20,718 nucleotides of DNA from a virus: IMG/VR virus record IMGVR_UViG_3300006079_000241, positions 1 through 20,718 of that record, one strand, 5' to 3'. The notes beneath the pieces are model-generated. The model searched no databases and was not told where the DNA came from. It was given only the letters and a program-made list of their open reading frames with translations. A program made the translations under genes and the position numbers. This document shows positions 2 through 19,085 of the stretch, in pieces. Position 1 is the stretch's first letter; every line of letters starts with the position of its first letter.

Positions 2-3000
2 GATAAATCAGGAATGATTGAAGGAACAAACAGAACAATTAATTTATACCGTGGTGGTACATACACATTTAAGATTAACTCTGCTGGTCACCCAATTTAT
101 GTTACAACCGATGATGGTTCACATTTCACTCCAGGTGCTTGGTTCGGTGAATACCTATTAGGTGTTCAGAACTCACGTGCGGAAGAAGGACTTGGTGATC
201 AAACTGAGGGTGATATATTAGATTTATGGGGTGTCGATGATGATGGTGTTACAAAATATGACACTATGACTTGGACAGTTCCTGAAGTATCACCAGACGT
301 AATGTATTATCAGTGTGCTTGGCATGCTTCTATGATGGGTCAATTTAATATCCTTGATTTACCTGTTGTTACTGCCGGAGATGATATTGTTGTTTACTTC
401 CATCACGGACAAGATAACATGTACACTCCATTACATATCAGGGATAAAATCCTTGTTGATAATGGAACTGGACCAGATTTCTTCCAAGTACAACCTGAAC
501 CAGCAAACGGATTCCCAGTAAAAGGAACTCAAGCAGATATTCTTAATCTTGGCAATCAATTAACAGCCACAGGTGCGGGAGCAATTCCTGAGATACAAGC
601 AATGAATATTGAATTAGGTACTATTCAATATATCGAACCTTTATTAATGATTCCTGGAATAGGTTCTGAGCAATTCTTAGTGACTAACGACGTTAGTGGA
701 CTTGCTAAGGTTTACTTTAGTGTTGACATCGACAAACGTTCTGATATTGAATTATCAAATGTTACTTTCAAAGAAGTTGTATGGACTGAAACAGGTTCAT
801 GGTCGGTTTCTGGTGGTAGTGCATTTACTACGAATACAGATGCTGCTTATATTGAGCAACTTGTGACGGGTACAATTGAAGATGGTGTTACATATGAAGT
901 TCAGTACGATATTATTGAATCTTTCAAAGACCAATATGGTGCAGAGATTGGAAATATTACTGCTAATTTAATTGGTGATACTACAGTTCAAGGTACTGCC
1001 AATACACAAGTTGGTCATTATACCGAAACTTTAGTTGCTCCTGCAAATACAACGTTACTACGTTTGACTAATGCAGGACAAGGTAAGATCGACAACGTTT
1101 CTATTAAAGAACGTGTTACTGGCCAAAATGCTTGGTCTATGGGTGAGGGTTGGACTTCTGATGGTGCGAAAGCATACATTGATGGGTCAATCTCTTCTGC
1201 TACAGAAGTTTCTCAAACAGTTTCTATTGATACAGGTAAACTTTACGAAGTTAAATATTCATTAGGTGATGTTGATAACGACAATAATGGTATGACTGGA
1301 CGTATGCGAGTTGCTTTAGGAACTAATCCTAGTAACTTAATTTCTAACTGGAATTTTGATATTACAGATCCAGTTTTAGTTAATTGGGTTATGGGTGACG
1401 ACACGGTTAGTATTATAGACGATACATTAAACTTTAATTCATCTTCTGACGCAACTGCGGTTTACACTTTATCAAATGCACTGGTCGGAGGAGTCAAGTA
1501 TGAAGTTAGTTTAGATTTAGATTTAATTGAAGATAATATCCTTAACTTCCAAGTAGGTCCAGGTCCAACAGGGACTCACTCTCATACGTTCCAAATGACT
1601 CAGTCTCAAGCAGACTGGATATCGTTCGACAGTGTAAGGTCTCTGACTTTTGCACAAACTGATGGATATCACGCAGAAACATATACACATGAATTTACCA
1701 TTAAATATGCAAATATTAACGGAATAGACCAATTCTATATCTCAGAGCAATCGAATCCAGAAGGACACGATGAGTTGACTTTAGTTTCTACTATTATTAA
1801 TACACCTACTGTAGAAGTTGTTATTAACGGAACTGTTGTAGCAAATTCAAATTCAAGTGGTATTCATAATTTAGACTTTATTGGTACAGCATCTAATACA
1901 ATTACAATTAACTTAAATGGTTCTGGTGCTCTTAACTCAATTAAACTCGTTGAAGAAGCTATTCCTGTTATTGATGCCAATACTGATGGACTTAATCAAG
2001 ACGGTGATAAAGTATTCCACGTTCGTGCTGGATCTTATGACCAAAAAGTTCACTTTATTGGTGACGTAGACGACAATAGACCTGAAGAAAATAATCCATA
2101 CTATTCTAATGTTGGTTTTGAGGGTTCTATTGATAACGTTTCTATTAGAGAAATTATCGAAAATTGGACATTTGCTTCTCAACAAGACGGTGTTGCGTAT
2201 ATAGATCAAATTACTCAGAAGATTTACACTTCTGGTACTGGTATTAATAATAGAGGTATTGCTCATATTACTTTCGAAATGGAAGCAGGTATGAATTACA
2301 AGATTTCATTTAAAGTTGATAGACCTACAGATTCAATTCTAAAATTAGGTCCAACTCCAGATAGTGATACGTATGGTTCAATGATTGTCGAAGATACTAT
2401 GACTAGTGGAGTTTATGACGAAACTAGAGACTTTGTAATTACTGCTCCTATTGCTGGTACTGCTTACTTAACACTTTCTACTACTGGAAACGGATTTACA
2501 TATTGGGATGACATTTCAGTTAAAACAATTCCTAACCTTTCATCTGATGAGTATTTATTACTTGCTCGTTCAATGAATGTTATGGGTGTGCCTGTTGGTG
2601 GTGAAGAAAGATGGAAAGCAAATCATTTAGATATGGAAAATGCTGACTATGTTGGACAACCTATTGCTGGTATGAGAACTATGGAATCATTCGGTGAGTC
2701 AATCATTGAAGATTACTACGACGTTAATAGACGTGGTAATGATATTCTTAACCCACCTATATCACTATCATCTACAGATAAGATGGCAGGAAGACGTGGT
2801 GTTTCTGAAATAGTTCCAAACTGTACGACTAATTTTGGTACAGACACATATAACATTGAATTAACTTGTACAAATGTTGTAGGATTGTGGTATGCGACAG
2901 TTGCTGCTCATTGTACTAATACAGATTATTCTACTCAAGTCGATTGTGAAGAAGTATTTGGTTGGTGGAGTGTAGAAACTCCAGGTTCTTGTTCTGATGC

Positions 3001-4006
3001 AACATATATAACAGAGTATGGTTGTTTGGGTGCTGGTACTTGTTCTGATGCAACGTATTCGTTTGAATATACTTGTGTTGCAGCCGGTATTTGTTCTGAC
3101 CCAGTATATAACGACGATGAAACTGGTTGTATAGACTCTGGTGGTTCTTGTTCAGACGGAGTGTCTACTTCATCAGGTGCTTGTTATGAAAATGACGGTA
3201 CTTGTACAGATGCTACATTAACAAATAACACAGATTGTACCGCTGCGGGTGAAACATGGACCGCAACTAACATTTGGACTCCAATAAACACTTACACTAA
3301 CTCTGGTAACACTTGGACTTCTGCTGGTAACGTTTGGACTCCAGGCGATGCTGGATATTGTTCTGACGGTATTCAGACAACACAAGAAGTATGTGAAGGA
3401 CCAAGAGGTACTTGGGTTATAGAAGAATTTGAACATTGTGATACTACTATTGCTGGTATCACAATTGACAATCAAATCGATTGCGAAGCACCTAGAGGTG
3501 TTTGGGATAATACTACTGTTACCGAAATGGATGGTCAGTGGGTAGAGATTGTTGGTGATGGTATTGACTTAGATTTCATAGTTACATTAGGTGATGTAGT
3601 ACAAACAGAAACCGAAAGTCTGAACCTACCATATAAGATAAGGTTTGAAATTCATCCTGATACATTATTGGGTGATAACGAACTACGTGTAACAAATGCA
3701 GACCTTGATACTTCAGCATTTTCTGACCCATTTGTAGTAACAGATACTTTACATATTAGAACTGTAACAGATAACAATGATGGATCTTATGGTGTAACAG
3801 GTGCAGCGTTTATAGCAGCAGACACAATTATTGAAATTATTGATGCATATAGTCAAGTTGTAGTAGACACGCCTGCAGCGGTTGTTAATACTCCTACTGA
3901 TTTAGTATTTGTAATTGGTAGTGTTGTAGCAGGAACGTATAACGTTAAAGTTACAAACCTAGATGGTCAAACATTTACAGAAGTCCTTGCAGTAATAATT
4001 ACATAA
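2..4006 (+). CDS. Giant modular tail fibre / adhesin (fibre 1), 5'-truncated by window edge
   Basis: The reading frame is open from position 2. The first Met (position 14) lies inside a domain-like sequence, so the true start is upstream of the window. Residues here are numbered from that Met (1330 aa). Residues 1-115 resemble a cupredoxin: GHP with H26, then C101, H104 and M108 in YYQCAWHASMMGQF. Residues 254-837 hold several jelly-roll (CBM4_9/laminin-like) modules ending in IDNVSIKE-type strands (359-366, 707-713, and a weaker one at 832-837). Residues 513-590 carry HxH motifs. Residues 937-1164 hold about nine Cys...Cys...Trp repeats, and 1175-1330 form Ig-like beta sequence. This architecture is typical of host-recognition fibres of marine T4-like phages and is expected to act on the virion surface. 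No late box is visible because the 5' end is missing. Function is inferred from module type, size and position next to other tail genes. The exact receptor is unknown. Confidence 0.8.
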   Translation, partial: DKSGMIEGTNRTINLYRGGTYTFKINSAGHPIYVTTDDGSHFTPGAWFGEYLLGVQNSRAEEGLGDQTEGDILDLWGVDDDGVTKYDTMTWTVPEVSPDVMYYQCAWHASMMGQFNILDLPVVTAGDDIVVYFHHGQDNMYTPLHIRDKILVDNGTGPDFFQVQPEPANGFPVKGTQADILNLGNQLTATGAGAIPEIQAMNIELGTIQYIEPLLMIPGIGSEQFLVTNDVSGLAKVYFSVDIDKRSDIELSNVTFKEVVWTETGSWSVSGGSAFTTNTDAAYIEQLVTGTIEDGVTYEVQYDIIESFKDQYGAEIGNITANLIGDTTVQGTANTQVGHYTETLVAPANTTLLRLTNAGQGKIDNVSIKERVTGQNAWSMGEGWTSDGAKAYIDGSISSATEVSQTVSIDTGKLYEVKYSLGDVDNDNNGMTGRMRVALGTNPSNLISNWNFDITDPVLVNWVMGDDTVSIIDDTLNFNSSSDATAVYTLSNALVGGVKYEVSLDLDLIEDNILNFQVGPGPTGTHSHTFQMTQSQADWISFDSVRSLTFAQTDGYHAETYTHEFTIKYANINGIDQFYISEQSNPEGHDELTLVSTIINTPTVEVVINGTVVANSNSSGIHNLDFIGTASNTITINLNGSGALNSIKLVEEAIPVIDANTDGLNQDGDKVFHVRAGSYDQKVHFIGDVDDNRPEENNPYYSNVGFEGSIDNVSIREIIENWTFASQQDGVAYIDQITQKIYTSGTGINNRGIAHITFEMEAGMNYKISFKVDRPTDSILKLGPTPDSDTYGSMIVEDTMTSGVYDETRDFVITAPIAGTAYLTLSTTGNGFTYWDDISVKTIPNLSSDEYLLLARSMNVMGVPVGGEERWKANHLDMENADYVGQPIAGMRTMESFGESIIEDYYDVNRRGNDILNPPISLSSTDKMAGRRGVSEIVPNCTTNFGTDTYNIELTCTNVVGLWYATVAAHCTNTDYSTQVDCEEVFGWWSVETPGSCSDATYITEYGCLGAGTCSDATYSFEYTCVAAGICSDPVYNDDETGCIDSGGSCSDGVSTSSGACYENDGTCTDATLTNNTDCTAAGETWTATNIWTPINTYTNSGNTWTSAGNVWTPGDAGYCSDGIQTTQEVCEGPRGTWVIEEFEHCDTTIAGITIDNQIDCEAPRGVWDNTTVTEMDGQWVEIVGDGIDLDFIVTLGDVVQTETESLNLPYKIRFEIHPDTLLGDNELRVTNADLDTSAFSDPFVVTDTLHIRTVTDNNDGSYGVTGAAFIAADTIIEIIDAYSQVVVDTPAAVVNTPTDLVFVIGSVVAGTYNVKVTNLDGQTFTEVLAVIIT
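14..358 (+). other. Cupredoxin-like domain with intact type-1 copper ligand set (in fibre 1)
   Basis: The segment reads as a plastocyanin-type fold: RGGTYTFKINSAGHP near the N-terminus, then CAWHASMMGQF near the end. The four classical ligands His, Cys, His and Met can be assigned to H26, C101, H104 and M108. Such domains recur in marine phage structural proteins. Copper binding itself is inferred. Confidence 0.6.
1550..1783 (+). other. HxH metal-binding-like module in fibre 1
   Basis: Residues 513-590 begin with GPTGTHSHTFQMTQSQAD and continue through YHAETYTHEF and NPEGHDEL. The spacing of histidines and the T(H)xH followed by a QxTQxQ-like helix match the module in fibre 2 (5713-5904). 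HxH pairs coordinate metal ions in T4 short and long tail-fibre tips. Metal binding here is by analogy. Confidence 0.5.
2822..3505 (+). repeat. Cys/Trp tandem protein repeat (about nine units) in fibre 1
   Basis: Residues 937-1164 contain 18 cysteines arranged as nine pairs. The typical unit is CSDATYxxxxxC followed by an AAG or G and sometimes a Trp. Pairs are C937/C952, C967/C978, C993/C1004, C1010/C1021, C1027/C1039, C1046/C1057, C1064/C1075, C1116/C1127 and C1142/C1157. Trp closes units 1, 2, 7, 8 and 9. A short Trp-Thr ladder (IWTP, TWTSAG, VWTP; 3269-3343) separates units 7 and 8. The 12-mer TGTTCTGATGCA is repeated exactly at 2990 and 3041. Each pair could form one disulphide, which is inferred. 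Confidence 0.8.
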
Positions 4007-4077: not shown

Positions 4078-7000
4078 ATGTCCGTAACACTATCAACGAT
4101 TTCAACTACGGTTGACCAGTTTAACGATATACCTGATATCACTTTCGAGAGTATTGATATTACGGAGTTCGTTGAAGAAGTAGAGATTTATACCAACACC
4201 CCTGCGGTGATGATTCCAACAAAATTGAACGCTATGGCGGGCAATATGAAATCATGGTTAAATTCAAATGTAACTACACCTTTAGAAAACCAACAAAACA
4301 CATTTAAAAATGAAGTAGTCGTCAAGACTAATACTGCTATGAATGCAGTTGAAACTTACATGAACGATGAAGTTGCTGGTTTTGTTAATTCAGTGTTTGT
4401 CCCTTGGGCAAATGATGCGGGTATTACGTTATCAACAGCTTCTAATCTTTTAGAAACTAATGTAACTACTCAGATAACTCAGTTACAATCAGATTACACA
4501 ATTCACGTACAAAATCAAGATGCTATTATTGCTCAAGCACTTGAAGATATGCTAACTTACCTTGCTCAATTCACCTCTGGTGCAGCTGACTCTGGTTATA
4601 CGGTACATCAAACAAACTTATTAGTTGCTGAAGTAACAATGACTCGTGAAATTGGTTTTGCTGATTACAAATACACACAAGATGGACAAATTGCTTTTGC
4701 TGAAGAAGGAGCAAATAAAACACATCACATTGCTTACAATAAAGCAGGCGGAATTTCTTCTTTCGGTGAGGCTATGCAAATTACGGGAGAACCGTATCCA
4801 TTTGTTCATCATTTAAGATTACAAAACGATGAATTTGGTTCTACTTCTGTAGAAAAAGTTAAAGCATATGATATATTTAAAGAAGTATTAGTCGATGGTA
4901 CTAATGTATTTAGGGCAAGTGGTCACGAAGCAAACGGCGATCCTGCAGAGGATTTAACTATTCTTAATAACACTTCTATTCCGGATGTAGACAACCCAGA
5001 ATTAGTTATTAGACGTGGTACTTCAAATGCTATGTTATATGGTGGTATTGATACTGGCGATATGGTTAAAATCACAGACTTAGGTGGAGCAATCTACAAT
5101 AAAGGCGTTGAAGGTAATTACTCGATTGATTATGGTACTATGATATTTTCTCCAGGAAGTTCTTATTGTCACGACGGTTTATCGTCAATTACAGGTTGGG
5201 GTGTAGTTGCAACAGACGGCGCTTCTGGTATTGATTCTGACGGTGGTGTTTATGACGACCCTACTAAATGTGAAACTAGTTCAGTTTCAACGGTTAATTT
5301 ATTAGACGACATGACTCGTTCATACGAGTCATCAATTGCAGGTGAATCTTACGATTCTGTACTTTCTGACGGTCTTACGTATAAAGTTTCTATTACAGAC
5401 GACTCTGGTGTTGTTGATACATACGGTTACACTATCGATTCAAATCAAACAGTAGGTACTGGAGCAATCTTTAATGCTGTTTATGATGATGGTGTTTCTG
5501 ATGTAATTGTTACAAACAGAGGTACAAGGTATTCAAGCCAATCACTTGCTAGAACATTTGACTTAGGTGCGGTTGATATTTCAGGTTCTGCTGAAACTAA
5601 AGCAATTGCTTCTCATACATTAAGAGATGGTTTGGTAGATTCGGTTAATGTTGTTTCTGGTGGTGCAGGTTATACTGGTTTCTGGAATGTTGTAGTACCA
5701 GACAGTGGTAATGGTCACACGCACAACTTACAATTAACTCAAACAGAAGTAAATTCAATTATTGGCGGAACGGGAGTTGTATCTACTACAGTTGAGGCTG
5801 GACATAGTCACGATATTACAGTTGAATGGAATTCTTTCAATAACGAATTTATCTTTACTAGTCAAGTTGGTCCTCATGACCATGGACTTTACGAAGATGG
5901 TCATCAAATTAATCCTCAAATTACAGTCGGAATGACAACCGTTGCTGGTTCTGGTTTTGCAGGTTATGCATTACTAAATGAAGCAAATGAATTAGATAAA
6001 ATTGTTATTACTAACCCAGGAACTGCTTATGCTTCAGGTGACGTTTTAACAATTACTGGTGGTACAGAAAGTAATTCAGCCTCAACTGTTGTTTCGTTTG
6101 CTAATGGTGGTATTAATTCTATCTCATTAAGCAATCAAGGTAGTGGATATACAGATACAACAGCTAAAACAGTTTCAGTTGTTATTCAAAATAATGCATT
6201 TGTTCCTTCTGTTATTTCGGCAAACGTCGGTGATACAGTAGAATTTACAAACTTAGATTTAGGAGCACATACGGTAACACACGCAGATGGTGTATTTGAT
6301 TCCGGTGATATTCCACAGGCAGGTGTTTGGTCTTACGTTATCACAAAAGATACTGAATTGACAGACAAATATTTAATTGGAGATGACCACTCTGCAGCTA
6401 GTGCTATTCTATGGGTACGTGAAAATACCGTATTTGTAGACATGATCACTGCGACTGGTGGTGGTATGCGTGGTCTTGCTACTGTAAGTGGTGCAGGGCA
6501 AATTCTTAATATTGCAGTTGATCGTCCAGGAAAGAATTATGTTGCTGGTGACGTGGTTAGAATTATTGACGTTTCTGGTGCTGGTGAGGGTGCATACGCA
6601 ACACCAGTATTAGACCGTTCTGTAGCAGAAGTTACTATAAACTCTAAAGGTTCTGGTTATTCTGATGATACATCAATTATAGTATTTGACCCAACAGGTG
6701 TAGCAGTTTTAGATCTAAATGGTTCTGAGATTGGTCGTACATTTGGTTCTGGTGCTGTAACTAAATTAGAAATTGCCCCAGAGTTTGTTGCTGGTTATTG
6801 TTCTAATGGAACATCGTCAAATGAACCTGATTGTACATCTGTATCTGCTACTTGGACATACGAAATTCTTGCTGGACAAATATCAGCAGTTTCAATGTCT
6901 TTTTCTGGTTCTGGTTACGGAGATGTTCAATTAATTATTAACGACCCTGCTGGTACTGGTAGTGGTGCAGTTGTAACTCCTGATATCAACAACATTATTA

Positions 7001-7650
7001 GTGATGTTGTACTTACAGACCGTGGTTCTAATTACGACGAACCTACTATTATTGTAACTGATTCAGGAGGAACTGTTGGTACAGATTCTACAAACACTGT
7101 TGGTATCGGTTTTGCGGGTATAGTTGGATTAAATAATGGTATTGGTTCTGCTTCAATTGTAGAAGATTGGCAAGACTATATTAATGGACAGACTAGAGTT
7201 ATTGTTATCGATAGTCACGCAGAGCCTACTGGTTATGGTGCGACTGGTTCTGTATCATTAGGTGGTGCTGGAAACGTTTCTAATATAATCATTAATAATC
7301 CTGGAAGTTCATATAAAACTCCTACGGTTATTGTTGCTGGTCCTGTTACATATTCTGGTGGTTCTATTAACCAAGCAGGAGAGGCATATGCATTATATGG
7401 ACCTAAAGGAAACCTTGACAGTTCACCATTCAGTGCTAACAGCTCTGCTGGTACAAACTTTAAGAACGGTGTACTTGTTCAGTGGGAACAGTATGAAGGA
7501 CATTCACTAAACGATTCTTGGGAATTTACAACTCAGTCATGGGTTAAAGGTTCACCTGATTCATTAGTATATGAATCTTCTAGATATGATGGTGCTACAA
7601 ATGACATGAAAGGTGTAATAACCTTGAAAGATATTTGGGACATCTTGTAA
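4078..7650 (+). CDS. Large modular tail fibre / adhesin (fibre 2)
   Basis: The protein has 1190 residues. The start at 4078 follows a TTGGAGA ribosome-binding site and two late boxes. The N-terminal ~170 residues are alpha-helical and rich in Asn/Thr (PTKLNAMAGNMKSWL and following), a type seen at the N-terminus of marine T4-like fibres, probably for trimerisation or attachment. From residue 480 to 1088 it carries about nine GxGY-type repeats (for example SGGAGYTG, NQGSGYTD, SKGSGYSDD, DRGSNYDEP). Residues 546-609 have three HxH pairs, 704-775 a plastocyanin-like segment, and 908-926 one Cys/Trp unit. The extreme C-terminus (1120-1190) lacks repeats and may be the tip or the joining domain. 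No signal peptide is evident. The role as a virion host-recognition fibre is inferred from composition, repeat architecture and neighbours. Confidence 0.8.
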   Translation: MSVTLSTISTTVDQFNDIPDITFESIDITEFVEEVEIYTNTPAVMIPTKLNAMAGNMKSWLNSNVTTPLENQQNTFKNEVVVKTNTAMNAVETYMNDEVAGFVNSVFVPWANDAGITLSTASNLLETNVTTQITQLQSDYTIHVQNQDAIIAQALEDMLTYLAQFTSGAADSGYTVHQTNLLVAEVTMTREIGFADYKYTQDGQIAFAEEGANKTHHIAYNKAGGISSFGEAMQITGEPYPFVHHLRLQNDEFGSTSVEKVKAYDIFKEVLVDGTNVFRASGHEANGDPAEDLTILNNTSIPDVDNPELVIRRGTSNAMLYGGIDTGDMVKITDLGGAIYNKGVEGNYSIDYGTMIFSPGSSYCHDGLSSITGWGVVATDGASGIDSDGGVYDDPTKCETSSVSTVNLLDDMTRSYESSIAGESYDSVLSDGLTYKVSITDDSGVVDTYGYTIDSNQTVGTGAIFNAVYDDGVSDVIVTNRGTRYSSQSLARTFDLGAVDISGSAETKAIASHTLRDGLVDSVNVVSGGAGYTGFWNVVVPDSGNGHTHNLQLTQTEVNSIIGGTGVVSTTVEAGHSHDITVEWNSFNNEFIFTSQVGPHDHGLYEDGHQINPQITVGMTTVAGSGFAGYALLNEANELDKIVITNPGTAYASGDVLTITGGTESNSASTVVSFANGGINSISLSNQGSGYTDTTAKTVSVVIQNNAFVPSVISANVGDTVEFTNLDLGAHTVTHADGVFDSGDIPQAGVWSYVITKDTELTDKYLIGDDHSAASAILWVRENTVFVDMITATGGGMRGLATVSGAGQILNIAVDRPGKNYVAGDVVRIIDVSGAGEGAYATPVLDRSVAEVTINSKGSGYSDDTSIIVFDPTGVAVLDLNGSEIGRTFGSGAVTKLEIAPEFVAGYCSNGTSSNEPDCTSVSATWTYEILAGQISAVSMSFSGSGYGDVQLIINDPAGTGSGAVVTPDINNIISDVVLTDRGSNYDEPTIIVTDSGGTVGTDSTNTVGIGFAGIVGLNNGIGSASIVEDWQDYINGQTRVIVIDSHAEPTGYGATGSVSLGGAGNVSNIIINNPGSSYKTPTVIVAGPVTYSGGSINQAGEAYALYGPKGNLDSSPFSANSSAGTNFKNGVLVQWEQYEGHSLNDSWEFTTQSWVKGSPDSLVYESSRYDGATNDMKGVITLKDIWDIL
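5713..5904 (+). other. HxH metal-binding-like module in fibre 2
   Basis: Residues 546-609 contain GHTHNLQLTQTEV, AGHSHDITVEW and GPHDHGLYEDGH, giving the pairs H547/H549, H576/H578 and H600/H602 plus H609. It is clearly related to the module at 1550-1783 in fibre 1. Iron or zinc coordination is inferred from T4 tail-fibre precedents. Confidence 0.55.
6175..6411 (+). other. Degenerate cupredoxin-like segment in fibre 2
   Basis: Residues 704-750 have the plastocyanin signature: NNAFVPSVISANVGDTVEF, then AHTVTHADGVFDSGDI with H731. The expected C-terminal Cys-x-x-His...Met ligand loop is absent (KYLIGDDHSAA instead). The fold may be kept without a type-1 copper site. Confidence 0.5.
6796..6858 (+). 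repeat. Single Cys/Trp repeat unit in fibre 2
   Basis: Residues 907-927 read YCSNGTSSNEPDC followed by TSVSATWTY, with C908, C919 and W926. This is one unit of the repeat expanded in fibre 1 (2822-3505) and also present in gp13 (18678-18800). Confidence 0.65.
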
Positions 7651-10584: not shown

Positions 10585-10607
10585 ATGAGTCAGTGGATTG
10601 CGGGAAT
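10585..10607 (+). repeat. 23-bp identical 5' end of carbamoyltransferase copy 1
   Basis: The first 23 bases of this gene are identical to the first 23 of copy 2 (12372-12394), encoding the same MSQWIAG start. This supports both start codons and origin by duplication. Confidence 0.9.
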
Positions 10608-12375
10608 AACGTTAGGTCATAACGCAGGAGTGTGTCTACTTAAAGACGGAAAAATAGCATTTAGTGTAGAAGAAGAAAGACTTTCTAGATATAAGCACGA
10701 CGGTGGACCTATACTCAGTCTAATGAAGATATTAGATTATACAGATAAATTAGATTATCTTGTAGTATCTAACCCTAATGATTCTAAAAATAGTATTGAA
10801 TATACTGGAGAACCATTATATCAAGGAATCGCAAGAAGACTAGGGTTAATTGAAAATATTAATAATCCAGACAAGACTCACTATCAGGTTATCAATATGT
10901 TTGAAAACCACCATCTACTTCATTCGGCTATTGCTTTTTACAATTCTGGGTTTGAAACGGCAGCTAGCGTCATTGTAGATAGTTCTGGTGCTGGTAGATC
11001 CTTAATAACTAACGAACTTAGTAGTAATTATTACGAAACAGAATCTATTTTTAAATGTTCTTATAGTAAGGGCATTTTTCCGATATTTAAAAAACTTATG
11101 TGCGACAGAGGAGGCGAAAGTTTTCACGTTCCTAACTTTAAAGACGATAATAATACAATTTATGAATTGGTTGTCGACGAAGGTGCTGGGATTGGTAAAG
11201 TGTTTGATGCAATTACGGATTATTGCGGGTTTAGAAACAGTGAATCTGGGAAAACAATGGGTCTATCTGCATTCGGTTCTATAAACAACCAATTGCCTAA
11301 TTTATTTCACACATATGATGGGTGTGATTTTATAAGTGCTAATAAAGAATTAATTAAATGTTTTTACCCAAATAATGCAAAAGTTAATTTAGGAAATTAT
11401 AGTCTTTTAAATACGGACGACTATACTAAAGATTTAACTTTATCCAAAAACAGAAGAGATATGGCATTCAAACTGCAGAAGGAAACAGAAGAACAAGTTT
11501 TAAATTTAATCATCAAGTCGTCCAAGATGGGTAATACTAAGAATGTTGTATTAAGTGGTGGTTATGCATTAAATTGTGTCTCTAATTACTACTACTTGGA
11601 TAAGTTGAAAGAGCATAATATTAAATTATACGTTGAACCCAACTCAAGTGACGCGGGTACAGCAATGGGTGCAGCGATGCTTCATTATTACAATATTAAC
11701 GGTAATATAGATAATAGAGAAAGATCTAATAATTTATTTTTAGGTCCAGAATATAATTACAATATTGACGATATTAATGAAAAAATAAAGAAATATGAAG
11801 CAGATATTATTGAGTGTTCGTATAAAGACGTTGCTAAGTTAATTAAAGATGGAAATATTGTTTCAATATTTCAAGGAAGAAGCGAGAACGGACCAAGGGC
11901 ATTAGGAAATAGAAGTATATTATTCAATCCAACTATAATTAACGGAAAGGATATAGTTAATAAAGTAAAGGGTAGAGAGTATTTTAGACCATTTGCGGCA
12001 TCAGTGATGAAAGATTATGTTCATGAATGGTTTGATATGAAAGGAATGGAAGAATCTCCTAGTATGATGTATGCCGTCGACGTTAATGAAAGTAAAAAAG
12101 AAATTATACCGTCGGTTTTACATGTTGATAATACTTGTAGAATTCAAACTGTTACAAAAGAAGGAAATGATAATTATTATAAACTTATTAGTGAGTTTTA
12201 TAATATTACAGGTGTGCCGATGTTGTTTAACACTTCGTTCAATTTAGGCGGTGAACCTTTAGTCGAAACGATTGATAATGCATTGGTGGTTTTAAATAAT
12301 TCTGAAATAGAATATTGTTTTATGCCAGAATTAGGTAGTTTAATTAGATTATATAATAAAAAGGATAGATTATGA
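10585..12375 (+). CDS. NodU/TobZ-family O-carbamoyltransferase, copy 1
   Basis: The protein has 596 residues, full length for the family. The enzymes transfer a carbamoyl group from carbamoyl phosphate, via carbamoyl-AMP, to a hydroxyl of a sugar or antibiotic. The N-terminal Kae1/ASKHA-like domain shows LGHNAGVCLLKDG (10-22), EEERLSR (29-35), the metal-binding HxxxH at H109/H113, VDSSGAG (131-137), LSGGYALNCVSN (323-334) and DAGTAMG (356-362, D356 as third metal ligand). The C-terminal YrdC-like domain shows GRSENGPRALGNRSIL (431-446), REYFRPFA (464-471), CRIQTV (518-523) and LFNTSFNLGGEPLV (547-560). The start follows AGGTGA and sits right after the previous stop. The stop overlaps the next ATG by 4 nt. 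All key motifs are present, so activity is plausible. The substrate is not known; a sugar made or transferred by the cargo enzymes is inferred. Confidence 0.93.
   Translation: MSQWIAGITLGHNAGVCLLKDGKIAFSVEEERLSRYKHDGGPILSLMKILDYTDKLDYLVVSNPNDSKNSIEYTGEPLYQGIARRLGLIENINNPDKTHYQVINMFENHHLLHSAIAFYNSGFETAASVIVDSSGAGRSLITNELSSNYYETESIFKCSYSKGIFPIFKKLMCDRGGESFHVPNFKDDNNTIYELVVDEGAGIGKVFDAITDYCGFRNSESGKTMGLSAFGSINNQLPNLFHTYDGCDFISANKELIKCFYPNNAKVNLGNYSLLNTDDYTKDLTLSKNRRDMAFKLQKETEEQVLNLIIKSSKMGNTKNVVLSGGYALNCVSNYYYLDKLKEHNIKLYVEPNSSDAGTAMGAAMLHYYNINGNIDNRERSNNLFLGPEYNYNIDDINEKIKKYEADIIECSYKDVAKLIKDGNIVSIFQGRSENGPRALGNRSILFNPTIINGKDIVNKVKGREYFRPFAASVMKDYVHEWFDMKGMEESPSMMYAVDVNESKKEIIPSVLHVDNTCRIQTVTKEGNDNYYKLISEFYNITGVPMLFNTSFNLGGEPLVETIDNALVVLNNSEIEYCFMPELGSLIRLYNKKDRL
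10726..10770 (+). repeat. 45-bp perfect direct repeat between carbamoyltransferase copies (copy 1)
   Basis: All 45 bases, including third codon positions, match 12513-12557. It encodes KILDYTDKLDYLVVS (residues 48-62). Flanking sequence diverges at once on both sides. Confidence 0.95.
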
Positions 12376-12394
12376 GTCAGTGGATTGCGGGAAT
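12372..12394 (+). repeat. 23-bp identical 5' end of carbamoyltransferase copy 2
   Basis: Identical to 10585-10607, the beginning of copy 1. Confidence 0.9.
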
Positions 12395-14144
12395 TGCCCG
12401 AGGACATAATGGTGGTGTATGTTTATTAAAGGACGGTGAGATAGTATTTGCTATTGAAGAAGAGAGGTTATCTAGGAAAAAGTACGATGGTGGACCATAC
12501 GCTTCTATGATTAAGATATTAGATTATACAGATAAATTAGATTATCTTGTAGTATCTCATACGCAACCAGATGATAGTAGAGTCGATTTTAGTGGGGATA
12601 CAGTTTACACTGGTCTTGCTCGTAAAATGAGATTAATTGAAGATGATAGTCAGGTATTAGATTTACATAAGTGGCATCATAAATCTCATGCGGCTTGTGC
12701 TTTTTATCGTTCTGGTTTTGAATCTGCTTGTGCGGTTATTGTCGATGGCGCAGGAACGTTTATCCCTATGGGAATGAACGGTGAAGAAGAAATGACTTGG
12801 GAATTAGAATCTCTTTTTAGTTGTAATTACCCTGATAATTTTAAAACTCTTTATAAACATCAAGGCGGAAGAGGTCCATGGGTTGGAGAGAAACTAGAAA
12901 TGTCCAGCGAACGTGAGGGAGAAGAAGGAACTCACGAATTAATCATTGACGATACTGCCGGAATTGTGAAAGCATACGAAGCAGTGACCCAATATTGCGG
13001 GTGGCAACCGATTGAAGCGGGTAAAACTATGGGTCTATTCCCATATGGTAAACCTAATGACGAAATCCCTGATATTTACACCGATGCTGGAGGTTCATGG
13101 AAAACTACAGATAGAAATCTTATTATTCCAACATATCCTAATGGAGCACTTGTTAATAGTCAAAAATATCCTTCCCTACATACGACTCAAGAAGAAATTG
13201 AAGGAGATGTTACATTACTTCAAAACCGTAGAGATATGGCATATGCTGTTCAAACGGAATCACAACAAATGGTTCTTGACTTAATTCGTAAAGCAGTTAA
13301 GATGAGTGGTGAAAAGAATGTAGTTATTTCTGGTGGATATGGTTTAAATTGTGTTGCTAACTATTGGTACTTAGAGCAGTTGAAAGACGAAGACATTAAC
13401 ATATACGTTGAACCTATTTCTAACGATGCAGGTACAGCAATGGGTGCAGCGTTATTAGTACATCACTCCCTCAATAAAGATAGTGAAATTAAAGGTTATG
13501 CGGAATCCCTATACCTTGGTCCTGTTCAAGAAGAAACTACTGATAAAATTATTGAAATTTCTAAGAAGTACGGAGCATCGGCAATATATGACGGACAGAC
13601 TCCTAAGGATGCTATTGATTTAATTATGAAAGGTCATATTGTTACTCTATTTCAAGATAGGTGTGAGAATGGACCAAGAGCATTAGGAAACCGTTCTATT
13701 TTATTCGACCCAAGATCCCTTGACGGTAAAGACTATGTGAATAGTGTTAAACATCGTGAATACTTTAGACCATTTGCTGGATCTATTTTACACGAACACG
13801 CACACGAATGGTTTGATATGAGAGGACTAGAAGAATCTATGCATATGATGTATGCTATGAATTGCCAACCTGGAGTCGAAGAAAAGATTCCTGCTATTAT
13901 TCATATCGACGGTACTTGTAGAATTCAAACGGTTAAGGAACATCAAAATCCAGTGTACTATGAAATGATTAAAGAGTTTTATGACCAAACTGGTGTACCA
14001 ATTCTTTTCAATACTTCATTTAACTTAGGTGGTGAACCTTTAGTAGAAACTATCGATGATGCCGTTAGAACCCTTAAAGAGAGCGAGATTGAATACCTAT
14101 ATATTCCTCATAACGGAGTTATTGTAGAAGTTAAGAATGTTTGA
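12372..14144 (+). CDS. NodU/TobZ-family O-carbamoyltransferase, copy 2
   Basis: The protein has 590 residues, paralogous to the preceding gene along its whole length. Motifs are RGHNGGVCLLKDG (10-22), HxxxH at H102/H106, VDGAG (124-128), ISGGYGLNCVAN (319-330), DAGTAMG (352-358, D352), CENGPRALGNRSILF (431-445), REYFRPFAG (462-470) and LFNTSFNLGGEPLVET (545-560). Predicted reaction and donor are as for copy 1. The central 125-200 region differs strongly from copy 1, which may reflect a different acceptor. The ATG overlaps the previous stop (ATGA, 12372-12375) after an AAGGAT ribosome-binding site, so translation is coupled. The end overlaps the next start by 8 nt. Keeping two complete copies suggests two acceptor positions or a hetero-complex; this is inferred. 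Confidence 0.93.
   Translation: MSQWIAGIARGHNGGVCLLKDGEIVFAIEEERLSRKKYDGGPYASMIKILDYTDKLDYLVVSHTQPDDSRVDFSGDTVYTGLARKMRLIEDDSQVLDLHKWHHKSHAACAFYRSGFESACAVIVDGAGTFIPMGMNGEEEMTWELESLFSCNYPDNFKTLYKHQGGRGPWVGEKLEMSSEREGEEGTHELIIDDTAGIVKAYEAVTQYCGWQPIEAGKTMGLFPYGKPNDEIPDIYTDAGGSWKTTDRNLIIPTYPNGALVNSQKYPSLHTTQEEIEGDVTLLQNRRDMAYAVQTESQQMVLDLIRKAVKMSGEKNVVISGGYGLNCVANYWYLEQLKDEDINIYVEPISNDAGTAMGAALLVHHSLNKDSEIKGYAESLYLGPVQEETTDKIIEISKKYGASAIYDGQTPKDAIDLIMKGHIVTLFQDRCENGPRALGNRSILFDPRSLDGKDYVNSVKHREYFRPFAGSILHEHAHEWFDMRGLEESMHMMYAMNCQPGVEEKIPAIIHIDGTCRIQTVKEHQNPVYYEMIKEFYDQTGVPILFNTSFNLGGEPLVETIDDAVRTLKESEIEYLYIPHNGVIVEVKNV
12513..12557 (+). repeat. 45-bp perfect direct repeat between carbamoyltransferase copies (copy 2)
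   Basis: Identical to 10726-10770. A shorter 21-bp identity also links 11656-11676 and 13431-13451 (the DAGTAMG motif region). Confidence 0.95.
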
Positions 14145-14820
14145 AATTAACGATGCAGCGTCTATTCGTGTTATTACGGAGATAGGACCGAATAAAGTTA
14201 GTGTTATTATTGTCGACGATTTCTATAAAAACCCAGATGAAATTCGCAATTTGGCACTCAAAACTAAACCAATAACAAAAGAAGAAAATCCACAATTAAA
14301 TGGAGGAGTTCATAAGAAGCGTATATATTTAGAAACAGATGATGTTAGGAATAATTTAAAAGACACTTACTCAAACTTAGTATCTGTTCCAAATATTTGG
14401 AAAATGAAAAAACAAGATAAGTTGTTTAATAATGCTTGGGATTCTACAAATTTCCTTTGTAATAGTATGAATGAGAGTGAGATTACAGGCGGATGTCCAC
14501 ATACAGACGGGGATTCTTGTCATTTTGCGTCTGTAATATATTTGAATACTCCAGAAGAATGTGCTGGTGGTACTGGGTTATTTTCATATGATGGAGGAAT
14601 GACATCTTTTGATGGTATGCGGTTCTGTCCCCAAGAAGATAATGGTGACGTTGATGATTGGATTTCAGAAAGCAGAACACCGCACTGGGTATTAGAATAT
14701 ACTATTCCTATGAAATATAACAGAATGATTTTATATGAAGGAAATGTATTTCATAGTCAAATATTTAAAAGAGGAATGTTTGACAATTACGACAGATTAA
14801 ATCAATCATTGTTCATGTAA
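14137..14820 (+). CDS. 2OG-Fe(II)-oxygenase-like protein (DUF6445 type), copy 1
   Basis: The protein has 227 residues. It starts with a strand and VDDFYKNPDEIRNLAL (26-41), the opening of DUF6445-type proteins. The double-stranded beta-helix core shows a PHTDGDS HxD pair (H122, D124), LNTPEECAGGTGLF (136-149), and the distal NVFHSQ (H206), the arrangement of the facial triad of 2-oxoglutarate/Fe(II) oxygenases. R195 in KYNRMILY may help. The reaction would be hydroxylation or another oxidation; the substrate is unknown. It overlaps the end of carbamoyltransferase 2 by 8 nt and precedes its paralogue by 11 bp. The DUF number is from memory, while the HxD...H pattern is directly visible. DUF6445 members have no assigned chemistry that I know of, so the oxygenase role is inferred. 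Confidence 0.65.
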   Translation: MFEINDAASIRVITEIGPNKVSVIIVDDFYKNPDEIRNLALKTKPITKEENPQLNGGVHKKRIYLETDDVRNNLKDTYSNLVSVPNIWKMKKQDKLFNNAWDSTNFLCNSMNESEITGGCPHTDGDSCHFASVIYLNTPEECAGGTGLFSYDGGMTSFDGMRFCPQEDNGDVDDWISESRTPHWVLEYTIPMKYNRMILYEGNVFHSQIFKRGMFDNYDRLNQSLFM

Positions 14821-14831
14821 AGGTTATAACG

Positions 14832-15578
14832 ATGGATATAAAAATAATAGACGAAAAGGAAATTTTCGAAGTAAACGAAAACTTAAATATTAGATTCGAA
14901 GAAGTGGGTTTATATACAGCACTTATTATAGATGATTTTTATAAGAATCCAGAAATGGTACGTGAACTTTTAATAGATATACCTAGCACAGAAAGACCGA
15001 ATGTTAAATATTCTGCGGTTGGTAGGAAAATTGCGTGTAATATAGACATCAGACCTCTAACTGATATTTTTTATGATATAATAACAAATTATGTAGATGG
15101 GTGTGAAAACCATAGTTATGAATCATTTAAAGCATCATTTGAACAACAATCATTTGCTGGTAACATTATAAAGGAACAAGACTTATTAAATATTCCAAAC
15201 GGAACAAAAGTTCCTCATGTTGATGGGATGATTGAAGACTTTTTGAACGCACAACGTGGGGGTAAATTTGTAACGGGCAGGAGTGGAGTTGCCTCACTTA
15301 TTACACTTAATACTCAAGAAGAGTGTGCTGGTGGTACAGCCTTTTTTAGGTTTGAGGGTACGCAACAACCCGATTCTGAGTATAGAGATAGAATAGAATT
15401 GGTTGATAATTATGTAACAGAAAGTGTAGGTCAGTGGGAATATATAAAAACAATCCCTATGAAATTTAATAGATTAATAATATATCCAAATTATATTTTT
15501 CATACGGGACATATAGAGAAAGGAATGGGGTTCGACGGAAAACCATTATATAGAATAAATCAAGTAGTTGTACCTTAA
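14832..15578 (+). CDS. 2OG-Fe(II)-oxygenase-like protein (DUF6445 type), copy 2
   Basis: The protein has 248 residues, paralogous to the preceding gene. Shared landmarks are IDDFYKNPEMVREL (33-46), LNTQEECAGGTAFF (159-172) and TIPMKFNRLIIYPNYIFHTG (207-226). The putative facial triad is H129, D131 (VPHVDG) and H224. Its middle is longer and different from copy 1 (residues 50-128), pointing to a different substrate. The start follows an AAAGGTTATA leader 11 bp after the previous stop, so it belongs to the same operon. The cupin gene begins 12 bp later. Confidence 0.65.
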   Translation: MDIKIIDEKEIFEVNENLNIRFEEVGLYTALIIDDFYKNPEMVRELLIDIPSTERPNVKYSAVGRKIACNIDIRPLTDIFYDIITNYVDGCENHSYESFKASFEQQSFAGNIIKEQDLLNIPNGTKVPHVDGMIEDFLNAQRGGKFVTGRSGVASLITLNTQEECAGGTAFFRFEGTQQPDSEYRDRIELVDNYVTESVGQWEYIKTIPMKFNRLIIYPNYIFHTGHIEKGMGFDGKPLYRINQVVVP

Positions 15579-15590
15579 AGGAGTTATATT

Positions 15591-16028
15591 ATGGAAATGA
15601 TTGAAAAAGGGTGGGGAAGAGAAGTAATTCTAGAATCTAACGATAAGTATTGTATGAAAGTTTTACAGTTTGATAAAGCAGGCGGTACATCATCTATGCA
15701 CTTTCACGTAGAGAAAGACGAAACTTGGACGATACTGAGTGGTAAAATAAAAGTTGAACTTATGGATTTAGAAGATGCTTCTGTAGAAGAACTTATTATT
15801 GAAGAAAGAGGAGTTATTAGGATAAAACCAATGACTCCCCATAAAGTAACAGCATTAGAAGATGGAACTTCTATTATGGAATGCTCGTCGTTTGATAGTC
15901 CATCAGATAATTATAGAGTATTTCCTGGAGATAGTCAAATGCCCCAAAAAGAAGAAGAAGTTTCAACTAGCAACAACTCTTTTGAAACTAATCGAAGTGG
16001 GGTGAAAATGAATCTTTTGGAAAGTTAG
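15591..16028 (+). CDS. Single-domain cupin (sugar-isomerase-like)
   Basis: The protein has 145 residues with a strong AAAGGAG ribosome-binding site. The core is one cupin barrel. It opens KGWGREVILESNDKYCMKVL (6-25), the style of mannose-6-phosphate-isomerase-like cupins found next to nucleotide-sugar genes. Motif 1 is SMHFHVEKDETWTILSG (35-51) with H37, H39 and E44. Motif 2 is IKPMTPHKV (78-86) with H84. These four residues form a usual metal site. Residues 110-145 are a polar, probably disordered tail (QKEEEVSTSNNS), and this tail's coding DNA overlaps the convergent hldD gene by 41 nt. It is the last gene of the cargo operon. A sugar-phosphate isomerase or epimerase role is possible, but small cupins are functionally diverse, so the reaction is not assigned. 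Confidence 0.7.
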   Translation: MEMIEKGWGREVILESNDKYCMKVLQFDKAGGTSSMHFHVEKDETWTILSGKIKVELMDLEDASVEELIIEERGVIRIKPMTPHKVTALEDGTSIMECSSFDSPSDNYRVFPGDSQMPQKEEEVSTSNNSFETNRSGVKMNLLES

Positions 16029-16878
16029 ACATATCTGCTTCTGTAAACGATTGATAATGTTCAGATAAATCTTTCGGCATTTCTATTAATTTAATATTAA
16101 TGTTGGGACCTACTTCAGAAACCATATCAGTAAACGACCTAGCAGAACCAGTTCCTATGTTATATACTCCACTGCGGGAAATATGAAGATTAATAGATTT
16201 CATTAAATTAATTGTCATATCTACTACATCGTCTATGTGGATGAAATCGCGTTTGAAATTCTCAGACCCCTTAAATAATGATACCTCTCCGTGTTCTTCT
16301 AATTGGTCTTTCATCCAAGCAGTTGGCGATTTCATCCCCGCCTCATCTTTATGTTGTTCAAATTCTCCATCAGAATAAACATTGAAATATCTACAACCAG
16401 CAATTCTAGAAGTTTTCATTAAACCTCTTGCATACTTATCTGCTTGAAGTTTAGAAAAACCATACATATTATTTGGTCGGTAGTCGTCAGAGTCGTCTTT
16501 AAATTCCTCACTATCTCCGTAAACAGAAGCAGAAGAAGCGTAGACCAAAGGTATTTGATTAGATGCACAAATATTCATAATATTACAAGTGAATTGATAG
16601 TTATTACTCATTAAATATTTACCATCTGTACAAGTTGTGGCGCTTTCTGCACCCAAGTGATAAATTGCTTCTACCATTTTATTTGATGCCAATACACTAA
16701 ATATTTCAATAAAATTATCTTTATCAATATAATCTTCTATTTCTAAATCTCTAATATTTTTTATTTTAGATGCGTCAGATAAATCATCGACCATTACTAT
16801 ATCAGTATGTCCGCCTTTGTTTAACCCTTTAATTAATCTACTACCTATAAACCCTGCTCCACCTGTTACTATAATCAT
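15988..16878 (-). CDS. hldD: ADP-L-glycero-D-manno-heptose 6-epimerase
   Basis: The protein has 296 residues and strongly resembles E. coli HldD (RfaD, about 310 aa), which converts ADP-D-glycero- to ADP-L-glycero-D-manno-heptose using bound NADP. Seen here: MIIVTGGAGFIGS (1-13, Rossmann loop); VDDLSDASK (30-38); YHLGAESATT (73-82); YASSASVYG (113-121); the catalytic pair Y139/K143 in NMYGFSK; RYFNVYS (163-169); FKGSENFKRDFIHIDDVVD (202-220), nearly word for word HldD; YNIGTGSARSF; and YQSFTEADMSN (275-285). The second catalytic Lys is probably K183 or K177. It stops at FSPHFD, so the final ~18 residues (last helix of E. coli HldD) are missing. The ATG overlaps the hldE stop by 4 nt (ATGA). 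The 3' end overlaps the convergent cupin gene. Confidence 0.95.
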   Translation of the reverse strand: MIIVTGGAGFIGSRLIKGLNKGGHTDIVMVDDLSDASKIKNIRDLEIEDYIDKDNFIEIFSVLASNKMVEAIYHLGAESATTCTDGKYLMSNNYQFTCNIMNICASNQIPLVYASSASVYGDSEEFKDDSDDYRPNNMYGFSKLQADKYARGLMKTSRIAGCRYFNVYSDGEFEQHKDEAGMKSPTAWMKDQLEEHGEVSLFKGSENFKRDFIHIDDVVDMTINLMKSINLHISRSGVYNIGTGSARSFTDMVSEVGPNINIKLIEMPKDLSEHYQSFTEADMSNFPKDSFSPHFD

Positions 16879-18116
16879 TTTTCTTTTATCCTCTTAATTG
16901 TATTTGTTGTACTCTTTCCTTCTATCGTAGGAAATATAACAACTTCATTAACTATATCAGAACCAACAACAGTATCAACTGTGTAGTCACCCCCTTTCAC
17001 TATCACGTCTGGTTTCAATTCTTTAATCAATTCTATCGGAGTATCTTCGTCAAATATAACAACTTCATCTACACCGTCTATTGCTTCTAAAATTGTCTTT
17101 CTATCATACATATTATTAATTGGTGTACGTTTAATCCTTGCAACAGAGTCATCACTGTTAATACCAACTATAAGTCTATCTCCTAATTTAGATGCTTCTT
17201 TTAATAATGCTATATGTCCACTATGTATAATGTCAAAACAACCATTAGTAAATACTACTTTTTCAATAACATCTTCATACTTAGGAACAGATGTGCCGAC
17301 TTTGCCTACCACTATTCCTGCGGCTCTATTTGCCTTTCGCATTGCTTCTTCAATTCCTTCGTGAAGAAATGAGGCAAATGTTGCTATTACAGTATCACCA
17401 GCACCAGTCACATCAAACACTTCTTTTGCTTCTGATTCTAATGTAATGGTTTCTTCTTTATCAATCCACATCATTCCATCTGCGCCTAGTGTAACCAATA
17501 AACCGTTTAAATCTAAATCATTGATAATATTTCTTGCGGTTGAAACAGTAAATTCCCCATATGCTTCTTCAAACTCTTTTTTATTAGGAGTCAAACAATA
17601 AGCACCACTATACTTTTCCCAGTCTGTTCCTTTAGGGTCGACGATTACAGGACACGAAAAGTCCATAATATAGTCAAGATACTCTTTACAAAGTGTTCCT
17701 TTATTATAGTCAGAAACAATAATAATATCAGGGGTTTCTTTTATTACTGTATTTTGAGGATATGTTATATTTCCGTGGTCCACACGAACTAATTGATGTC
17801 TGCCTGACATAATTCTTATTTTAGAAATAGTCTTATTTTCGTAAGAATAACTAAAGTGAAATTTGACGTTATTATCAGTCAATTTCTTAGTCATTATTAT
17901 AGAGGCATTATCATACCCTGCACACCCGTATATTGTCGTTCTCGCATTAAATACTCTTGTCGTGACCGCAACGTTAGCTGCTCCTCCAAGTACGTGAGAA
18001 ACGGAAATATCGTCTACTATGGGGACAGGTGCTTCGGGGGATATTCTATTGCTAGTGCCGTACCAATATTCATCTAACATTACGTCGCCTATGACGACAA
18101 TAGTCTTTTCATTCAT
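16875..18116 (-). CDS. hldE: Bifunctional heptose-7-phosphate kinase / heptose-1-phosphate adenylyltransferase
   Basis: The protein has 413 residues (E. coli HldE is 477). The N-terminal ribokinase/PfkB domain (1-283) shows GDVMLDEYWYG (10-20), RISPEAPVPIV (24-34), LGGAANVAV (43-51), the VDPKGTDWEKY region (159-169), TPNKKE (176-181) and the catalytic GAGD loop (238-241, base D241). The C-terminal nucleotidyltransferase domain (287-413) shows VVFTNGCFDIIHSGHIALLK (287-306) with the HxGH motif at 298-301, GINSDDSV (318-325), KGGDY (374-378) and GKSTTNTIKRI (400-410). It would phosphorylate D-glycero-D-manno-heptose-7-P at C1 and adenylylate the resulting heptose-1-P. The GmhB phosphatase step between them, and the GmhA step before, are not encoded here. 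It is first in the minus-strand operon, followed by hldD with a 4-nt overlap. The start at 18116 gives the native MNEKTIVVIGD beginning. Confidence 0.95.
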   Translation of the reverse strand: MNEKTIVVIGDVMLDEYWYGTSNRISPEAPVPIVDDISVSHVLGGAANVAVTTRVFNARTTIYGCAGYDNASIIMTKKLTDNNVKFHFSYSYENKTISKIRIMSGRHQLVRVDHGNITYPQNTVIKETPDIIIVSDYNKGTLCKEYLDYIMDFSCPVIVDPKGTDWEKYSGAYCLTPNKKEFEEAYGEFTVSTARNIINDLDLNGLLVTLGADGMMWIDKEETITLESEAKEVFDVTGAGDTVIATFASFLHEGIEEAMRKANRAAGIVVGKVGTSVPKYEDVIEKVVFTNGCFDIIHSGHIALLKEASKLGDRLIVGINSDDSVARIKRTPINNMYDRKTILEAIDGVDEVVIFDEDTPIELIKELKPDVIVKGGDYTVDTVVGSDIVNEVVIFPTIEGKSTTNTIKRIKEK

Positions 18117-18209: not shown

Positions 18210-19085
18210 ATGGCAAAAGTACAATCCGCATTACAATTAAAAGAATATGCTTACCGCAGATTGGGTTATCCAAAGGTAGAAATACAAGTGGACGATACTC
18301 AAGCATATGACCGTATTGACGATGCTATTCAATTATTCGTTGAACGTCATTATGATGGTGTAGAAGAAAAATACCTTACACTAGTCTTTGACTCTACAGA
18401 CGAAGCAAATCAGTATCTAACTTTAGACGACAGTGTTGTTACAGTCACTAGAATTTACGAACCTAGTGCCAGTTCTGCAGAGGCAATGGGTGACGTTCGT
18501 TATAGAATTATGATGGATGAAATGTTTGACATGACAAGAGTCAATCTACAATATTTCGAAATGACTATGCAACATCTAGATTTAATCACAGATTACTTCA
18601 ACGCAGATAGAACCTTTACATTCAACAAATCAAGCAATAGATTATACTCACATACGGGAACAATATTAGGACCATCATGTCTAGTTAAAGGTGTCTGTTC
18701 TGATGCATCTATTACTGAAGAATCTTTATGTGTATCTCCGGCAACTTGGACTGCATATTCAACTCAATCGATTTGTGAGACAGCAGGCGAAGATTGGTAT
18801 TTTGGAAGTAAAATTATAGTTCGTGCTTTCGTTGCTGTAGAACCAGACGAGGGTACTTCATATGCACTTGATGTATATAACGATGAGTGGATGAAGAAAT
18901 ATACAACTGCATTGATTAAAAAGCAATGGGGTTCTAATATGAAACAATTTGACGGTATGCCACTTCCAGGTGGTATTGTTGTCAATGGTCAACAATTATG
19001 GGACGAAGCAAACGACGAAATTATGAGACTTGAAGAGCAATTCTCACTTGAATACGAATTGCCAACCAACTTTTTAATAGGATAA
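18210..19085 (+). CDS. 13: T4-type neck protein gp13, with Cys/Trp insertion
   Basis: The protein has 291 residues (T4 gp13 has 309). It forms the head-tail neck with gp14. Recognisable parts are MAKVQSALQLKEYAYRRLGY (1-20), IDDAIQLFVERHYDGVEEKY (36-55) and the C-terminal block DVYNDEWMKKYTTALIKKQW (221-240), then MPLPGGIVVNGQQLWDEA (250-267). These match T4-like neck proteins from marine phages, including the PGG..NGQQ signature. Residues 157-197 (C157, C163, C174, W180, C189, W196) form an unusual Cys/Trp insertion between two predicted strands of the family fold. The late box at 18133 drives it; the gp14 ATG follows 4 bp after the stop. The ribosome-binding site is weak (AGAGAAAGA). Confidence 0.85.
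   Translation: MAKVQSALQLKEYAYRRLGYPKVEIQVDDTQAYDRIDDAIQLFVERHYDGVEEKYLTLVFDSTDEANQYLTLDDSVVTVTRIYEPSASSAEAMGDVRYRIMMDEMFDMTRVNLQYFEMTMQHLDLITDYFNADRTFTFNKSSNRLYSHTGTILGPSCLVKGVCSDASITEESLCVSPATWTAYSTQSICETAGEDWYFGSKIIVRAFVAVEPDEGTSYALDVYNDEWMKKYTTALIKKQWGSNMKQFDGMPLPGGIVVNGQQLWDEANDEIMRLEEQFSLEYELPTNFLIG
18678..18800 (+). repeat. Cys/Trp repeat insertion in gp13
   Basis: Residues 157-197 contain VCSDASITEESLC with a trailing SPATW, then YSTQSICETAGEDW. This is the same unit as in fibre 1. The 12-mer TGTTCTGATGCA (18696-18707) is identical to those at 2990 and 3041. Related marine T4-like neck proteins, as I recall them, run straight from the NRLY strand to the IIVxAxxxVEP strand without this segment. 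Confidence 0.75.

Follow-up and report, generated by a model that had tools for sequence, protein, structure and literature searches.

A portable 20-residue cysteine/tryptophan unit in neck, fibre and other virion proteins of phages

A unit of about 20 residues that brings its own pair of cysteines recurs in two fibres and the neck protein gp13 of a marine T4-like phage, and we read it, with a probability of roughly 0.7, as a portable loop micro-domain under selection at the level of the protein, the two cysteines presumably stapling it as a disulphide. That the unit inserts in frame at loops of virion proteins, as whole units and with its own Cys pair, is shown or strongly supported by the comparisons below. 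Phages are believed to control adsorption and contacts between particles through swappable surface domains, and the familiar exchangeable ones (Ig-like, lectin-like) are about 100 residues each; a self-contained unit of 20 residues in some 20 protein clusters, core neck and sheath proteins included, would be a minimal case. It lies outside the coverage of the annotation libraries searched: no model in Pfam, PHROGs or NCBIfam covers it as a domain among the proteins scanned, PDB sequence searches with the unit and with its profile gave no match, and the literature, as represented by open papers, yielded no prior description of a Cys-pair repeat in phage virions.

The unit in the window and its variable number in gp13

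The window, i.e., the whole stretch of DNA analysed, comprises an entire IMG/VR record (20,718 bases), with homologues of gp13, gp14 and gp15 at its right end. The consensus of the unit is C1-S-D-x3-T7-x4-C12-x3-G16-x-T-W19-T, its invariant positions being the cysteines and the tryptophan, not serine or threonine, and profile matches in gp13, fibre 1 and fibre 2 of the window accord with the pattern C-x10-C-x6-W with S/T at position 2, D/N at 3 and T/S at 18. A profile built from 33 units and run as a six-frame search of the window record recovered the better copies at E-values of 1.8e-10 to 5e-6. The Cys/Trp micro-repeat described in the earlier note is thus real, with nine Cys-paired units in fibre 1, one in fibre 2 and a two-unit composite in gp13 (Table 1); of the form given there, CSD-x(8)-C-x(5..8)-W, the Cys pair holds for all nine fibre 1 units, whereas the Trp is missing from several. 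These nine pairs (2822-3505) take up 18 of the 19 cysteines of fibre 1 and are spaced by 11 residues in six cases, 12 in one and 15 in two; the exact C-x10-C-x6-W arrangement is present in three of the nine units, against a shuffle mean of 0.0045. For the single unit of fibre 2, shuffling gave P 1e-4.

Table 1. Positions of the carrier genes, the individual units and a neighbouring gene cluster in the window
Feature	Position	Strand	Sequence	Remarks
Fibre 1	2..4006	+		3' part of giant tail-fibre/baseplate gene; 5' end beyond contig
Fibre 1 unit 1	2822..2893	+	CTTNFGTDTYNIELTCTNVVGLWY	Divergent, C spacing 15; Cys pairing
Fibre 1 unit 2	2912..2971	+	CTNTDYSTQVDCEEVFGWWS	Profile E 1.1e-7
Fibre 1 unit 3	2990..3040	+	CSDATYITEYGCLGAGT	Without Trp; profile E 0.004; direct repeat family D2
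Fibre 1 unit 4	3041..3091	+	CSDATYSFEYTCVAAGI	Without Trp; profile E 0.003; direct repeat analysis
Fibre 1 unit 5	3092..3148	+	CSDPVYNDDETGCIDSGGS	Without Trp, C spacing 12; profile E 0.04; direct repeat analysis
Fibre 1 unit 6	3149..3202	+	CSDGVSTSSGACYENDGT	Without Trp; profile E 0.18; direct repeat analysis
Fibre 1 unit 7	3203..3262	+	CTDATLTNNTDCTAAGETWT	Canonical; profile E 1.1e-7; best AlphaFold2 unit
Fibre 1 unit 8	3359..3418	+	CSDGIQTTQEVCEGPRGTWV	Profile E 1.8e-10
Fibre 1 unit 9	3437..3505	+	CDTTIAGITIDNQIDCEAPRGVW	C spacing 15; profile E 2e-4, second half
Fibre 2	4078..7650	+		1190 aa; GSGY-type repeats common to gp14-like family phrog_460
Fibre 2 single unit	6799..6858	+	CSNGTSSNEPDCTSVSATWT	Profile E 2.8e-8; without counterpart in G012 orthologue
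Putative sugar-modification cluster	9526-18116			HldE-like kinase/cytidylyltransferase, NAD-dependent epimerase, cupin, two tandem carbamoyltransferases
gp13, neck / head-tail adaptor Ad2	18210..19085	+		291 aa; phrog_211 3e-34
gp13 two-unit composite, C157 to Y197	18678..18800	+	CLVKGVCSDASITEESLCVSPATWTAYSTQSICETAGEDWY	Presence/absence series in relatives
gp13 inner canonical unit	18696..18752	+	CSDASITEESLCVSPATWT	19 aa; one residue missing ahead of W; profile E 5.2e-6
gp13 outer unit, second half	18753..18800	+	AYSTQSICETAGEDWY	Presumably pairs with C157 (18678); profile E 0.002

The fibre 1 gene is cut by the start of the contig, its full length being about 2,500-2,800 codons, and the part present shares 57% identity with the C-terminal half of an ORF of 2517 aa from a related locus (L108). 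Another orthologue (G012, L122 2478-9506) stops exactly at the start of the Cys array, so that the array and the C-terminal beta domains look like a block that was either appended or lost. The GSGY-type repeats of fibre 2 match phrog_460 (gp14-like head closure) as well as baseplate wedge families, and form a second module common to neck, wedge and fibre proteins. Adjoining the fibres (7710-8648) is a Gly/Cys-rich protein of phrog_4205 whose 312 aa include 24 cysteines, some of them in CCC triplets. Further along, an ORF at 9526-10584 reads like a family-9 heptosyltransferase and has no Pfam match, and two neighbouring DUF6445 proteins (14137-15578) resemble 2-oxoglutarate/Fe(II) hydroxylases and are absent from the related records searched.

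The neck protein offers the clearest view of how the unit comes and goes. Its identity as T4 gp13 is supported by profile and by fold, with a profile match to the T4 gp13 chains at 6.6e-31 and a match of its AlphaFold2 model to T4 gp13 structures 9lu7/9mkb (E 5.7e-13). The composite holds cysteines at residues 157, 163, 174 and 189 and, judging from the alignment of two-unit with one-unit gp13, from which the outer unit was assigned, is better read as nested, with the inner CSDASITEESLCVSPATWT lying within an outer unit formed by C157 and TQSICETAGEDW. The same nested Cys steps of 6, 11 and 16 recur in an unrelated tail protein, phrog_10775 (L088/L126, L248).

Among gp13 relatives from 70 IMG/VR loci, one and the same loop is empty in proteins of 247 aa, holds one unit in those of 270 aa and the two-unit composite in those of 291/292 aa. 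Two of these loci form a clean natural presence/absence pair: L027 has one unit, L058 lacks it, and their DNA agrees at 98.8% of positions downstream and at 90.5% upstream; near-identical pairs of this kind render the effect of the unit directly testable. In a gp13 tree computed with the insert removed, zero-unit alleles fall inside the one-unit clade, with L027 among them at a modest support of 0.74, and this nesting suggests loss or allele exchange besides gain. No unit is present in the aligned outgroup gp13 of Mosig, Melnitz, S-SSM7, P-RSM6 and a Desulfovibrio phage, nor in gp13 of T4, cyanophages and pelagiphages. The insertion therefore varies by lineage, as had been proposed from the window alone, and is not an ancestral part of the gp13 family.

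Carrier proteins and selection on the protein

Scans of the collection with degenerate DNA patterns returned 19 stretches under a strict pattern and at least 120 under a looser one; such scans favour canonical letters, so that the host proteins listed are a minimum and in part a biased selection. After masking of the units, the carrier proteins form at least 20 unrelated phage clusters, including tail sheath gp18, baseplate gp8, neck gp14 (Hc2), a tail tubular protein, minor tail protein L, phrog_10775, GLEYA/PA14 and LamG (lectin-like fibre) proteins, giant fibre/wedge proteins and two gp6-like wedge families, one of which occurs in the cultured Vibrio phage GR7B; a tail amidase-like protein has a weaker copy. 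Every annotated phage carrier among the matches listed is a virion or tail-lysin protein. Its occurrence in some 20 unrelated clusters bears out the earlier view of the unit as shared and portable, and its presence is variable well beyond gp13: sheath and fibre 2 orthologues exist with and without it, gp8 relatives with and without a further unit, and three genomes picked solely for their zero-unit gp13 (G016-G018) have units in other proteins. When a synthetic three-unit consensus was searched against the phage collection, GR7B was the sole record, at a weak E of 0.8, and its unit was then confirmed by the unit profile (1.7e-10).

The unit extends to bacteria, where it is rare and was detected in four of the 274 genomes of one class-level sample (E 1e-5), the starting genome being one of the four. 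Its carriers there are pilin-like proteins with prepilin leaders (N_methyl) and coiled-coil, adhesin-like proteins with signal peptides, and cellular carriers are mostly of secreted or surface type.

Among the matches listed, all 218 unit-bearing six-frame fragments (of 62,499) lie in ORFs of at least 160 aa, which hold just 22.8% of six-frame residues. None of the 218 is shorter than 160 aa, i.e., no copies were detected outside or antisense to genes; because loci overlap, the 218 are redundant, and the clusters comprise 137 distinct ORFs. The underlying DNA varies freely, as in the Ser codon of CSD (TCT 25, TCA 23, TCG 6, TCC 5, AGT 2), and no dyad symmetry is common to the copies, the array having a single inverted repeat of 10 nt and gp13 none. 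Units confined in frame to long ORFs, together with freely varying DNA, point to selection on the protein.

An exact 12-mer, TGTTCTGATGCA, does occur three times in the window, in gp13 and twice in fibre 1, and had been taken as a sign of recent copying between these loci. We reject recent copying: the DNA of the window's gp13 unit is 50% identical to units in other genes of its own genome, as opposed to 83% to gp13 units of another genome, and the 12-mer fits codon bias, since the peptide CSDA written with the codon usage of the window would yield it with P = 0.11 per copy. Across eight records, the nearest DNA neighbour came from another genome for 38 of 39 units. Taken with the 12-mer, this indicates that the spread of units between genes is real but old.

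Probable disulphide, modelled fold and possible uses

In the gp13 clade, the insert contains four cysteines in all 27 two-unit sequences, two in all 27 one-unit sequences and none in the 10 zero-unit sequences, and outside the insert not one of the 64 proteins has a cysteine. Cysteines are thus gained and lost in pairs, which argues for a disulphide, and on these counts the suggestion that the unit is disulphide-bonded can be raised to the statement that C1 and C12 are very probably joined. Since the proteins are made in the cytoplasm, the same cysteines could instead stay reduced or bind metal.

Structure prediction gives a similar local pattern in gp13 and in one fibre unit. The AlphaFold2 model of gp13 places the insert between strands 144-147 and 201-209 (mean pLDDT 62, unit 1 below 50); C189 falls within a helix (186-191), and a two-residue strand follows at the Trp (195-196). 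In the fibre 1 segment, unit 7 is the only unit modelled with any confidence (pLDDT about 62-66) and consists of a strand (153-155), a helix around C12 (163-168) and a strand at W19 (173-175); mean pLDDT of the segment is 39 and most units are unfolded in the model, a poor result because only six relatives are available. The common strand-helix-strand order of gp13 and one canonical fibre unit is consistent, at low to moderate confidence, with a single fold such as the earlier note anticipated for gp13 and the fibres.

We propose that the C1-C12 disulphide would staple a strand, a short N-capped helix (T7 to G16, including C12) and the W19 strand into a self-contained loop cap, which an exposed loop could gain or lose with the host fold undisturbed. 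In gp13, the cap would sit on the loop flanked by strands 144-147 and 201-209 and presumably face outward from the neck, and in fibre 1, nine caps in series would make up a Cys-linked segment of the stalk. The Cys pairs would form their bonds once lysis has freed the virion from the reducing cytoplasm, and an exposed, oxidised knob would add contact surface to the released virion, toward the host, particles or neighbouring virion proteins. Units would have moved between genes and genomes long ago and repeatedly, through illegitimate recombination and the exchange of alleles, with no dedicated DNA element involved. The contact knob is most likely, as we infer, and is our preferred use, with pure stabilisation nearly as likely. 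Neck and fibres might also share a ligand or a modification site, as the earlier note suggested. A more far-reaching reading, which we offer as tentative, is that among the freely exchangeable domains of virion surfaces the unit is the smallest known, a disulphide-closed adhesive knob of 20 residues that tunes particle stickiness by gain and loss from loops of neck, sheath, baseplate and fibre, and that is common to phages of different tail types and to bacteria.

The strongest competitor, which we consider quite plausible if somewhat short of even odds, is that the unit is a purely structural stapler that hardens loops against proteolysis, heat or mechanical stress and binds nothing. The pairing of the cysteines would fit, as would the location of units at loops of non-adhesive proteins (sheath, gp8, gp14), and disulphide networks protect sheath and baseplate against stress in phage Milano (PMC10811340). 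However, close relatives manage without the unit at the same loops, and a contact role would account at least equally well for its addition to lectin-like fibres, to pilins and to proteins resembling adhesins. A selfish coding DNA element merely tolerated in loops, in the manner of the Rickettsia palindromic elements or PARCELs, would account for the many unrelated genes hit and for the clean presence/absence alleles, and there is precedent for a coding repeat spread by transfer (PMC2996958). We nevertheless regard such an element as very improbable and reject it as the main reading: among the matches listed, copies occur only in long sense ORFs and annotated phage carriers are all virion or tail-lysin proteins, copies share no palindrome or inverted repeat, synonymous sites vary while C, C and W stay, and the closest units are in other genomes (38/39).

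Two further uses appear unlikely, each only a little less so than the mobile element. The Ser/Thr-rich unit might serve as a glycosylation acceptor for the sugar cluster of the phage itself, which separates the fibres from gp13 and most of whose members recur in unit-bearing G001, G002 and G008 and, in large part, in G007/G018. Yet the invariant residues are Cys and Trp, the heptosyltransferase-like ORF lacks a Pfam match, the cluster may serve host surface sugars, and no comparable cluster is apparent for the T4 gp8-like loops or the bacterial carriers of the unit. Alternatively, the gp13 unit might be a dock for collar fibres that stands in for domain III of T4 gp13 (residues 193-238), which binds the fibritin gpWac (PMC12270204), and a sequence profile does put the marine insertion beside these residues. 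The cyanophage alignment, however, places the unit one inter-strand loop before domain III; that position would leave a collar role possible, but zero-unit gp13 occurs in near-identical phages, and the unit is also found in proteins with no role in the collar.

Comparison with known systems

The closest structural lead came from aligning marine gp8 to solved structures: a loop of T4 gp8, CSIASLTDKDECLKLGGKWT (1N7Z, residues ~142-161), has C-x10-C-x6-W-T spacing identical to that of the unit, together with T7 and G16, a spacing that arises in shuffled T4 gp8 with P 0.0015. It is kept in all six examined gp8 proteins of T4, RB43, Aeromonas, Acinetobacter and Vibrio phages (Straboviridae or Straboviridae-like) and missing from four of Kyanoviridae; the gp8 relatives of the window have a variant loop, beside which three of them (G012, G019, G021) add a canonical unit. 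Unlike the variable marine unit, the T4 loop is fixed in its family and is without D3. Against the unit profile it scores 2.8-6.5 bits, which is no significant similarity and too low to make the loop more than a lead for structure and a possible source, as distinct from an established origin.

PARCELs are 25-residue repeats that occur with variable copy number in unrelated surface proteins and taxa (PMC2996958), and the unit resembles them in being short and scattered over unrelated proteins from distant taxa. It differs in that PARCEL DNA is palindromic and the repeat amphipathic, whereas the unit is based on Cys and Trp, lacks a palindrome, and also occurs as single copies in core virion proteins. 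In Agrobacterium phage Milano, disulphides lock the sheath and baseplate of a contractile tail (PMC10811340); there, the key bonds join different subunits through dispersed cysteines, whereas each unit has a pair of its own that would bond within it.

DUF7151 (PF23657), a small Cys-containing repeat of secreted bacterial proteins, shares one protein with the unit: a secreted-type protein on a viral contig (L245 7910-9745) contains two DUF7151 stretches and one unit. The 46-residue DUF7151 profile matches residues 78-121 of this protein as its best stretch, and the unit, at 227-246, lies outside the match.

Ig-like domains on structural proteins of tailed phages are likewise portable, occurring in many unrelated virion proteins and varying between close relatives. 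They are beta sandwiches of about 80-100 residues, no Pfam Ig family covers the unit, and at just 20 residues the unit is about four times smaller, sits within loops and is probably based on a disulphide.
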